Made by a program: the position numbers and the translations under genes. Below are positions 31,717-35,978 of a stretch of 64,000 nt of DNA, piece by piece. The notes below the pieces were generated by a model. That model was not told where the DNA came from, made no database searches, and saw nothing but the letters and a program-made list of their open reading frames with translations. This DNA is from Oscillospiraceae bacterium (GTDB taxonomy: Bacteria > Bacillota > Clostridia > Oscillospirales > SIG627). The stretch lies in NCBI GenBank assembly GCA_015063605.1, contig SVTV01000009.1, forward strand, positions 20,081 through 84,080, given 5' to 3'. Positions within the stretch are counted from its first letter, which is position 1. Every line of letters starts with the position of its first letter.

Positions 31717-33006
31717 TTGATTGAATTTATGAACTATATCAATGCGACAAAGAATGAACTGAAAAGTCTGCTTGATTCAGAAAGAAAAAAATACGATGAA
31801 ATAATAAGCAAAAAGCTTTCTCTCAACATGTCGAGAGGAAGACCCTGTACGGAACAGCTTGATCTTACGGAAGGTATGCTTTCTGTATTGTATAAAAACG
31901 ACATGTGTAATTTGTCGGGAAATACCGACGTAAGAAATTACGGTGTTCTTTCCGGTATAGATGATATAAAGACGATATTTGCCCCTATTCTTGGAGCGGA
32001 TAAGGATGAGATATTCGTAGGAGGAAACTCCTCTCTCAATCTTATGTACGATATGATAAGCGATGGTATGCTTTACGGATATAACGGCTGCACACCTTGG
32101 GCGAAGCTTGAAAATGTAAAGTTCTTGTGCCCCGTTCCGGGTTATGACAGACATTTCATGATATGCGAAAAGCTCGGTATCGAAATGGTCAATGTCGATA
32201 TGCTTGAAGACGGTCCCGATATGGATACCATCGAAAAGCTTATTTCGGAGGATGACAGCATAAAGGGTATTTGGTGTGTACCGAAATATTCAAATCCTCA
32301 GGGAATCACGTATTCCGATGAGGTAGTGCGCCGTTTTGCCGATCTTTCTCCCAAGGCGCCGGATTTCAAGATATTCTGGGATAACGCATATGCTATCCAT
32401 GATCTGGATGAAGAAAAGGATGTTCTTCTCGGACTTCTTCACGAAGCTGTAAAGAACGGTAAGGAGGATATGGTATTTGAATTCACATCCACCTCCAAGA
32501 TAACGTATGCCGGAGCAGGTGTATCTTTCCTTGCTTCTTCCGTTGAAAATATTAAGAACCTTTCCAAGCGGATCGGCATACGTACAATAGGATATGATAA
32601 GGTCAATCAGCTAAGACATGCACTTTTCTTTAAGACGACCGAAAATGTTTATGAGCACATGAAGCTTCATGCGGAGATACTGAGACCCAAGTTTGACATA
32701 GTTGTCAATACATTGGAAAGTGAGCTGGGAGACACCGGTATTGCTTCCTGGCACAGGCCCCGCGGCGGTTATTTTGTAAGTCTTGAACTTATGCACGGAA
32801 CCGCAAAAAGAGCATGGCAGCTTGCAAATGAGGCAGGCGTTGTGCTTACAACAGTAGGCGCTACTTATCCTTACGGACGTGACCCCAAGGACAGCAATAT
32901 AAGAATTGCTCCTTCCAATACAACGAAAGAAGAGCTTACCGCAGCTATGGATGTGCTTTGCGTGTGTGCGAAGATCGCGGCTGTTGAAAAGCTTCTCGAA
33001 GCTTAA
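31717..33006 (+). CDS. Aminotransferase class I/II (MocR-like fold, PLP-dependent)
   Basis: LNMSRGRPCTEQLDLTEGML, PKYSNPQGITYSDEVVRRFA, FTSTSKITYAGAGVSFLASS. Confidence 0.88.
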   Translation: MIEFMNYINATKNELKSLLDSERKKYDEIISKKLSLNMSRGRPCTEQLDLTEGMLSVLYKNDMCNLSGNTDVRNYGVLSGIDDIKTIFAPILGADKDEIFVGGNSSLNLMYDMISDGMLYGYNGCTPWAKLENVKFLCPVPGYDRHFMICEKLGIEMVNVDMLEDGPDMDTIEKLISEDDSIKGIWCVPKYSNPQGITYSDEVVRRFADLSPKAPDFKIFWDNAYAIHDLDEEKDVLLGLLHEAVKNGKEDMVFEFTSTSKITYAGAGVSFLASSVENIKNLSKRIGIRTIGYDKVNQLRHALFFKTTENVYEHMKLHAEILRPKFDIVVNTLESELGDTGIASWHRPRGGYFVSLELMHGTAKRAWQLANEAGVVLTTVGATYPYGRDPKDSNIRIAPSNTTKEELTAAMDVLCVCAKIAAVEKLLEA

Positions 33007-33052: not shown

Positions 33053-33709
33053 ATGAAGAAAAAGATATTTTCATTGTTGATAGCGGTGGTAACGGTCTTC
33101 TCCATGTACGCTTGTGCGTCAAGAAATACCGCGCTTGTGCTTTCCTTCGAAAATGATAAAACCACTTTCGAGGAAGTGTCCGATGTCTTGAGATCAAGGC
33201 TGGAACGGCTTTACATCAGCAATACGAATATAGACATTACGGAAATATCTGCAGGCGAATTGAATGTCCGCATCAACGGAACGAGTCTCAGCGACGAGCA
33301 GTTGAAGATATTGCTTTATTCCGAATCCTTGAGTGTCAAGGATGCCAAAGGCAATACAGTTCTTTCAGCCGAAGATTTTATGGATTGCAGTGTGGGATTC
33401 GATCCCTCCAAGTCCGATGGAACGGGTGAGAACGGATGCTACGTGAAGCTGACCTTTACCGATGACGGTGCGGAAAAATTCAAGGAGCTTACAAGGAGAA
33501 TAAGCTCGGAATCCGAAGAAAAAAACAGAAAGCTGTTCTTTTTCAGCGGAAAAGAGCTAATATATGAACCGGTCATAAATTCAACCGTGATATCAAAGGA
33601 TATCATGCTTACGGGTGAATTTGAGCTTACTGAGTGCATTTTGTCCAGTGCTCAGATATTTTCCGCAATAAAACCTTTGCCTTGCCTGGTTGAAGTCAAG
33701 TTGGAATAG
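33053..33709 (+). CDS. Lipoprotein resembling the extracytoplasmic (P1) domain of SecD
   Basis: Lipobox SMYAC; VSDVLRSRLERL...LSVKDAKGNTVLSAEDF and CYVKLTFTDDGAEKFKELTRRI...LFFFSGKELIYEPVINSTVISKDIMLTGEFELTE align with SecD encoded just downstream. Confidence 0.75.
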   Translation: MKKKIFSLLIAVVTVFSMYACASRNTALVLSFENDKTTFEEVSDVLRSRLERLYISNTNIDITEISAGELNVRINGTSLSDEQLKILLYSESLSVKDAKGNTVLSAEDFMDCSVGFDPSKSDGTGENGCYVKLTFTDDGAEKFKELTRRISSESEEKNRKLFFFSGKELIYEPVINSTVISKDIMLTGEFELTECILSSAQIFSAIKPLPCLVEVKLE

Positions 33710-33763: not shown

Positions 33764-35032
33764 ATGTCAAAAGAAACATCAAGATTAATTTTTGCGATCA
33801 CGCTTATAGCTACTCTCGTAACCATAGCTGTATGCGGTCTCCCTTATCTCGGACTTCCGGGAGTGTTTGAAAAGGACGCCATAAGAAAGGGTCTCGACCT
33901 TTCCGGCGGTTCTCTTATAGTGTACGAGGCTCAGATCGAAGGCGATATGCCCGATGACCTCGAAGAGAAGATGGACGCTGTTGTTGTAATGATGCGCAAC
34001 CGTCTTACAACTCTCGGTTATACCGAAGCAGTTGTTACAAAGATTGGTGATACAAAGGTTCAGATAGAGATTCCCAATATTACCAACCCCGAAGAAGCTG
34101 TTCAGAAGCTCGGCTCCACAGCAAAGCTTGAGTTCCGTGACTATGAAGGCACAGTTATTCTTACCGGTGAAGATATAGCAGGTGCAAATGCCGTTTACGG
34201 TCAGTATGACGACAGCGGTGTTGCAGGTTATTTCGTAAGCCTTCAGCTTTCCGAGGCAGCTGTTGAAAAGTTCGGCGAAGCTACAGACAGAGTTAAGGAT
34301 TATGCTTCCGAAGGTAATAACTATATTGCTATTTACCTTGACGATGAGCTCCAGACATCTCCCTCCGTTACACAGAAGCTCAACACCTCCGAGCTTTCCA
34401 TCACCAAGGCTGACTACACAGCCGAAGAAGTTAAGTGGCTAGCAAGCGTTATATCCGCAGGTGCTCTTCCTTTTGCACTCAAGGATATCCAGCTTGAATC
34501 CATAGGTCCCGAGCTCGGTGAAAACGCGCTTGAAACAAGCTTCCTCGCAGCCGTTATAGGTCTTGCACTTGTAATCATATTCATGTGCGTAGTATATAAG
34601 ATGTTCGGTATCATTTCCGCACTTTCTTTGGCTGCTTATACAGCAATAGTATGCATAGTTATCGTTCTCTTCAAGGTCAACCTTTCTCTTCCCGGTATCG
34701 CAGGTATCGTTCTTTCCATCGGTATGGCTGTTGACGCCAATGTCGTTATTTTCGAAAGAATTCGCGAAGAGATACGTCTCGGAAAGAGCCTTGCAGCCGC
34801 TACAAAGGCAGGCTTCAACAGAGCATTTGCTGCCGTTATCGACAGTAATATCACAACGTTGATCGCAGCTATCGTTCTTTGGGTATTCGGTACAGGTTTT
34901 ATTACCGGATTTGCTATAACACTCTTCATAGGTGTTGCTGTTTCTCTGTTTACGGCTATCGTTCTCACACGCTTTATTCTTAATGCGATAGTAAGGACAA
35001 AGTTTGCCGATTCCAAGCTTTTCAATATATAA
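33764..35032 (+). CDS. secD: Protein translocase subunit SecD
   Basis: IRKGLDLSGGSLIVYEA, IGMAVDANVVIFERIREE, SNITTLIAAIVLWVFGTG. Confidence 0.95.
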   Translation: MSKETSRLIFAITLIATLVTIAVCGLPYLGLPGVFEKDAIRKGLDLSGGSLIVYEAQIEGDMPDDLEEKMDAVVVMMRNRLTTLGYTEAVVTKIGDTKVQIEIPNITNPEEAVQKLGSTAKLEFRDYEGTVILTGEDIAGANAVYGQYDDSGVAGYFVSLQLSEAAVEKFGEATDRVKDYASEGNNYIAIYLDDELQTSPSVTQKLNTSELSITKADYTAEEVKWLASVISAGALPFALKDIQLESIGPELGENALETSFLAAVIGLALVIIFMCVVYKMFGIISALSLAAYTAIVCIVIVLFKVNLSLPGIAGIVLSIGMAVDANVVIFERIREEIRLGKSLAAATKAGFNRAFAAVIDSNITTLIAAIVLWVFGTGFITGFAITLFIGVAVSLFTAIVLTRFILNAIVRTKFADSKLFNI

Positions 35033-35045
35033 GGAGGACACATAA

Positions 35046-35978
35046 ATGAAAAAGTTTAAAGAAATGAACTTCGATTTTATAGGAAAGAGCAAGATATTCT
35101 TTATTATATCCGCTGTTGTTTTCCTTGTAGGTATAGTCTCTCTCGTAGTATTCGGACTCAATCTTGATGCTGACTTTATCGGCGGCACAAGCTTTACGAT
35201 GGATCTCGGTAAGCCCGTGGATTCCGCTGTGATCTCCGAAGTAAGAGCACTTGTTACGGAGTCCATAGGTGTAACTCCTTCTTCCGTTCAGACTGCAGGC
35301 TCCAACGGAACTACTGTTCTTATCAAGACTCCCGAAGTCGATACAGAGAACAGAGACAAGCTCGTTAATGATATAGTCGCTAAGTATGAGCTCGGCGAAA
35401 ATTACACCGATTATCAGGTTTCCAACGTAGGCGCATCCATGACAAAGGATATAACAAAGTCCTTGTTTATGGCTACAATAATCGCCGTTATTCTCATGCT
35501 TGTGTATATCACATTCAGATTCGATCTCAGATCCGGTGCTGCTGCGGTAGTATGTCTTATACATGACCTTTTTGTAATGCTTACGGTTTATTCACTGTTC
35601 AATATATCCGTTGATTCCAACCTTATAGCCGCATTCCTTACGATACTCGGTTACTCAATAAACGGTACTATCATCGTATTCGACAGAATCAGAGAAAACA
35701 AGGGCAAGTATGCTTCCAAGCCTTTCAAGGAAATCGCCAATATGAGTATAAATCAGACCTTCAGACGTTCCGTAAATACAATGGTAACGACATTGCTTAC
35801 GATCGTTATGATCTATATTCTCGGCGTTGAATCCATCAAGAACTTTGCGTTCCCGCTTATTATCGGTATCCTCGCAGGCTTCTATTCCAGCACATGCCTT
35901 GCAAGTGCTGTATGGTCGATGCTTTACAAGGATAAGAATGCAGCTCCCGCTCAGGAAGCAGTTGAGTCCGCTCAGTAA
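35046..35978 (+). CDS. secF: Protein translocase subunit SecF
   Basis: FGLNLDADFIGGTSFTMDLG, TILGYSINGTIIVFDRIREN, NMSINQTFRRSVNTMVTTLLTI. Confidence 0.95.
   Translation: MKKFKEMNFDFIGKSKIFFIISAVVFLVGIVSLVVFGLNLDADFIGGTSFTMDLGKPVDSAVISEVRALVTESIGVTPSSVQTAGSNGTTVLIKTPEVDTENRDKLVNDIVAKYELGENYTDYQVSNVGASMTKDITKSLFMATIIAVILMLVYITFRFDLRSGAAAVVCLIHDLFVMLTVYSLFNISVDSNLIAAFLTILGYSINGTIIVFDRIRENKGKYASKPFKEIANMSINQTFRRSVNTMVTTLLTIVMIYILGVESIKNFAFPLIIGILAGFYSSTCLASAVWSMLYKDKNAAPAQEAVESAQ

Follow-up and report, generated by a model that had tools for sequence, protein, structure and literature searches.

A predicted stand-alone SecD P1-domain lipoprotein encoded directly upstream of secD-secF in an uncultured bacterium

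Analysis of a stretch of 64,000 nucleotides from an uncultured bacterium, hereafter the window, indicates the presence of a predicted lipoprotein that consists of a whole SecD P1 domain behind a signal peptide, encoded directly upstream of secD-secF and devoid of the motor part of SecD. We propose, with a probability of about 0.5, that this membrane-tethered P1 acts as an accessory at the Sec exit, where it would bind emerging chains or dock foldases without a proton motor. SecDF is thought to pull chains, the movement of P1 being coupled to proton flow, and a natural P1 without a motor makes it possible to examine the contribution of P1 alone: chain binding, chaperone recruitment, or both. 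The P1 domain itself is already known and is recognised by Pfam; the stand-alone lipoprotein form appears to be new, given that no description of stand-alone SecD P1 lipoproteins was found in the open-access literature searched. The features of the locus are collected in Table 1.

Table 1. Features of the lipoprotein-secD-secF locus, in window coordinates
Feature	Position	Strand	Basis
Gene for the stand-alone SecD P1 lipoprotein, 218 aa	33053..33709	+	ORF and translation; PF22599; same-slot orthologs (G001, G003)
Signal peptide MKKKIFSLLIAVVTVFSMYA and lipobox cysteine (residue 21)	33053..33115	+	Read from the translation
N-terminal half of P1 base, ~residues 26-95, equivalent to SecD_1st	33128..33337	+	SecD alignment and AlphaFold strands/helices; boundary approximate
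P1 head (~residues 96-195) and base-closing C-terminal helix/strand (192-218)	33338..33706	+	PF22599 match 101-194; AlphaFold elements H192-206, E213-217; Foldseek to SecDF P1
Complete secD, P1 domain included	33764..35032	+	TIGR01129 319.7 bits; SecD_1st, P1_head and SecD_SecF_C domains
secF	35046..35978	+	TIGR00966 282.9 bits
Aminotransferase-like gene	31717..33006	+	ORF tables; function by eye from sequence

The lipoprotein ORF starts at an ATG and its frame is intact. It lies 46 bp from the aminotransferase-like gene and 54 bp from secD, which is followed by secF, in agreement with the position directly upstream of secD-secF given in a preliminary description of this DNA. The sole terminator-like site found on the plus strand between 32900 and 36200 is within secD, which makes it plausible that the lipoprotein gene is co-transcribed with secD-secF. 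An aminotransferase-like gene is also the upstream neighbour in genomes G001, G003 and G063, and it recurs upstream of secD (G004, G219, G063, G001 and G003) with or without a lipoprotein gene in between.

Several sequence comparisons argue that the similarity of the window lipoprotein to SecD P1 is real. Pfam PF22599 (SecDF_P1_head) matches it with 30.2 bits, above the cut-off of 27, and BLASTP aligns residues 40-218 with the SecD encoded next to it at 22% identity (E=7e-7). In an independent local alignment the same pair scored 123, with ~24% identity, whereas 200 shuffles gave 60 at most. Moreover, a profile built from three lipoproteins alone, with no SecD included, matched SecD proteins over nearly the full length of P1, at 4e-14 for the one encoded in the window and at values as low as 7.7e-21 elsewhere in the order; a PDB sequence search with this profile returned zero matches. 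Pfam did not report PF21760 (SecD_1st) for the window lipoprotein, though this stretch of SecD does align with its residues 40-95. The RND transmembrane core is absent, there being no SecD_SecF_C match, and TIGR01129 reaches just 23.7 bits, far under its cut-off of 244.4. The GG motif that precedes the first P1 strand in SecD is also missing, and the cysteine and a short linker stand in its place. Given the lack of both the RND core and the GG motif, the window protein is, as judged from its sequence, not a SecD. The preliminary description had read it as a stand-alone SecD P1-like protein that aligns with the extracytoplasmic domain of SecD over most of its length and lacks the six-TM RND core, and each of these points was borne out.

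The predicted protein comprises the head and both parts of the base, namely its N-terminal half and the C-terminal helix and strand by which it is closed. Past the cysteine and linker, P1 starts at the strand that follows the GG motif in SecD, so that TM1 and GG are excluded, and it ends with the residues that in SecD ('QLE-SIGP') run into TM2. In effect, the protein appears to have a lipid anchor where SecD has TM1, and it lacks the motor. The lipobox, SMYAC, was recognised by reading the sequence and not by a predictor; the assignment, already made in the preliminary description, is strengthened by the orthologs of G001 and G003, in which an equivalent signal peptide is followed by a cysteine.

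An AlphaFold model computed from four rows (two lipoproteins and two SecD P1 domains) had a pLDDT of 80.6. Its nine best PDB matches in Foldseek were all SecDF, and TM-scores to the isolated P1 crystal 3aqo were 0.63/0.62. As the SecD rows could steer this model, modelling was repeated from two lipoproteins alone; the confidence was then low (44), too weak for the model to stand as fold evidence by itself, and the best PDB match was still an isolated SecDF P1 (E 7e-3, probability 0.96). The assignment of a SecDF P1 base-and-head fold therefore leans mainly on homology, with which the models agree, and the predicted fold is not an unrelated one.

Three genera have kept the gene at the same place, while the identity among orthologs is 21-31%. 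The ortholog of G001 (genus g2 of the same family; MAG SUG1173, Bacillota) is 31% identical to the window protein, and that of G003 (genus g4), a lipoprotein of 216 aa, is 21% identical. The latter was recognised by a profile of the other two with 26.5 bits, against a maximum of 7.9 in 2000 shuffles, and by a SecD-only profile with 25.4. Overlapping contigs of G001 carry two alleles of the gene that differ at 14 synonymous and 3 nonsynonymous sites (pN/pS ~0.06), which means that this ortholog is under purifying selection. A scan of genome contigs gave only SUG1173 contigs that had already been recovered. The gene appears to be missing from other genera of the family, and most relatives lack it, some of these absences not being firm because the searches miss some genomes. 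In G004, secD comes straight after the aminotransferase-like gene, with no lipoprotein between, and the GG-motif region of its SecD (L013) looks divergent, with no clear DLxGG.

A survey of 396 sampled genomes of the order, whose counts are lower bounds, revealed further P1 lipoproteins directly 5' of secD. One of them, in G063 (family f23), is a P1-only lipoprotein of 240 aa, encoded again after an aminotransferase. Three more belong to family f19: a P1-only lipoprotein of 303 aa in G363, a lipoprotein of 652 aa that combines the P1 head with leucine-rich repeats in G339 (L108:1022-2980, minus strand), and a P1-only lipoprotein of 268 aa in G107, whose Pfam score of 20.1 is under the cut-off but which aligns with the SecD encoded beside it far better than shuffled sequences do. 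The lipoproteins of G363 and G339 group inside the SecDs of their own group, with support of 100/100 and 99/100 in two trees. A tree test rejected a single clade, and with it a single origin, for the five lipoproteins tested (p=0.0027), and did not reject the joining of the window family with G063 alone (p=0.32). This rejection and the nesting of G363 and G339 among their own SecDs indicate, from the sequences, at least two origins of P1-only lipoproteins, and the repeated origin of motor-less copies suggests that the domain does useful work alone. Among 400 genomes from across the phylum, most extra P1 heads were in longer frames of second-SecD size, which were not checked individually, and no short P1 ORF was seen beside secD beyond the cases named here. 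Three other candidates were discarded: those of G219 and G289 are SecDs truncated where the contigs end, and that of G365 is a lipoprotein of low complexity in which no P1 can be seen.

Two studies of Sec partners bear on what such a domain might do. For E. coli, one of them assigns the substrate-binding cavity to the P1 head and describes a contact of this head with the membrane-anchored chaperone PpiD (PMC11470409). The other finds SurA bound to the SecDF/YidC side of the holotranslocon, with the P1 head as its location in AlphaFold (PMC9987972). In G464, which belongs to another family than the window genome, we found two lipoproteins of 465 aa (L135:409-1806, plus strand, and L133:101-1498, minus strand); the one scanned has a SurA_N domain (32.5 bits, cut-off 27.2) fused to a P1 head (40.3, cut-off 27). 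This natural fusion fits the recruitment of foldases or the binding of chains by a tethered P1, and together with the recurrence of P1 lipoproteins 5' of secD it lends indirect support to the accessory role at the translocon that the preliminary description had suggested.

Under the proposed mechanism, the P1 part of a secD would have been duplicated, and a lipoprotein signal peptide would have taken the place of TM1. The product would be exported by Sec and then lipidated, and SecYEG/SecDF would be surrounded by more P1 domains. Close to the translocon exit, or at it, the tethered P1 would provide an extra polypeptide-binding site, which may capture or hold emerging chains or dock a foldase; lacking the RND core, it would not perform a proton-driven stroke itself. 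A wider proposal can be put forward tentatively, namely that bacteria have repeatedly separated P1 from the SecDF motor and turned it into a chaperone at the translocon exit that is anchored by lipid, binds chains independently of the motor and in some cases is fused to a SurA-type foldase domain; such proteins would form a class of Sec accessory undescribed in the literature searched. Both the repeated occurrence of P1 proteins next to secD and the fusion of SurA_N to P1 suggest that in Bacillota the outer face of the membrane is the site of a chaperone-like role. Counting against the Sec-exit reading are the scarcity of the gene among relatives, including other genera of the family, and the high divergence of the orthologs.

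The free P1 might instead regulate SecDF, either by pairing with the P1 of SecD or the P4 of SecF, or by competing with SecD P1 for chains or partners. The complete base and head have been kept, and with them the partner surfaces of SecD could have been kept as well, and the operon-like placement with secD-secF fits this idea; an identity of just ~24% to its own SecD argues against it, and we consider regulation of this kind unlikely.

P1 domains also occur away from secD. In G704, of a different family of the phylum, a stand-alone P1 lipoprotein of 197 aa (L134:1174-1767, plus strand) is encoded far from secD, and P1-head lipoproteins not near secD were found in G300 and G255. In G331, a secreted protein of 914 aa (L107:2546-5290, plus strand) begins with a P1-like domain that scores 26.9 bits, just short of the cut-off of 27, and ends with a YkuD L,D-transpeptidase domain; it also has SLH domains, and long frames similar to it are present in G313, G230 and G204. 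Additionally, a P1 protein of 264 aa with an N-terminal hydrophobic segment, encoded in G111 (L073:1875-2669, minus strand), adjoins a murD-like gene and not secD, with SecD_1st and P1_head both above cut-off. P1 lipoproteins that lie far from secD, or P1 joined to wall domains, mean that P1 need not imply Sec, which also weighs against a role at the Sec exit. They open the reading that P1 was co-opted for binding at the surface or the cell wall and plays no part in Sec, the adjacency to secD reflecting only an origin by local duplication, and the leucine-rich repeats of the G339 protein would suit it too. However, the gene stayed beside secD in three genera while identity fell to the values given above, and reuse of this sort is thus quite unlikely for the window protein.

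Arrest ORFs are known upstream of secDF, including a group from Clostridia, uDF_DGMK-stop (PMC7897499, PMC10987492). Examples of arrest peptides are VemP before secD2F2, SecM before secA, and ApdA and ApdP before secDF2. By analogy, the ORF could be a secretion monitor, an exported upstream frame whose stalled translation tunes the expression of secD-secF. It is small, predicted to be exported and directly upstream of secD, and it would broadly fall within the criteria used in surveys for arrest peptides upstream of secDF (PMC10987492, PMC7897499). Against this, constraint spans the whole folded domain, and the C-termini of the three orthologs (VEVKLE, VSLLE and SPNKII) have no RAPP-like, DGMK or other conserved motif. 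RNA folding across the lipoprotein-secD junction was no better than in shuffles (z=0.37), so that there is no signal of an attenuator RNA at the junction either, and a monitor function is very unlikely. Finally, a decaying, functionless partial duplicate of secD, such as the patchy distribution and long tree branches might suggest, is hardly credible and was rejected on grounds of selection and synteny, given the full-length frames in three genera, the retained signal peptide and lipobox, the clean domain boundaries and the low pN/pS between strain alleles; nor is the gene confined to one genome as a degraded copy, a prospect that the preliminary description had raised.

The proposed Sec-exit accessory can be set beside several known systems. 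YajC is a small partner of SecDF that is often encoded near secD. Like the window protein, it is small, membrane-associated and encoded near secDF in many bacteria, but it is of another family: the Pfam scan gave no YajC match for the window lipoprotein, and a replacement of YajC is ruled out, given that YajC is encoded elsewhere in the same genome (G000:C34) and in most of the family. VemP, ApdA, ApdP and uDF_DGMK-stop are likewise exported ORFs directly upstream of secDF, whereas the window protein is predicted to be a folded P1 and has neither a conserved C-terminal arrest motif nor a stem-loop signal at the junction. PpiD and the SurA-type (SurA_N) chaperones are also extracytoplasmic, and P1 and SurA_N are joined in the G464 lipoprotein; the window protein differs from them in that the Pfam scan found no SurA_N or PPIase domain in it. 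With the P1 of SecD and SecDF (PF21760, PF22599; PDB 3aqo, 5xan, 5xap, 5yhf) it shares the domain itself, its base and head, the order of its elements and the predicted fold. It differs from SecD and SecDF in having no GG motif and no six-helix RND core, the latter implying that it would have no proton coupling, and in being held at the membrane by a predicted lipobox anchor in place of TM1.
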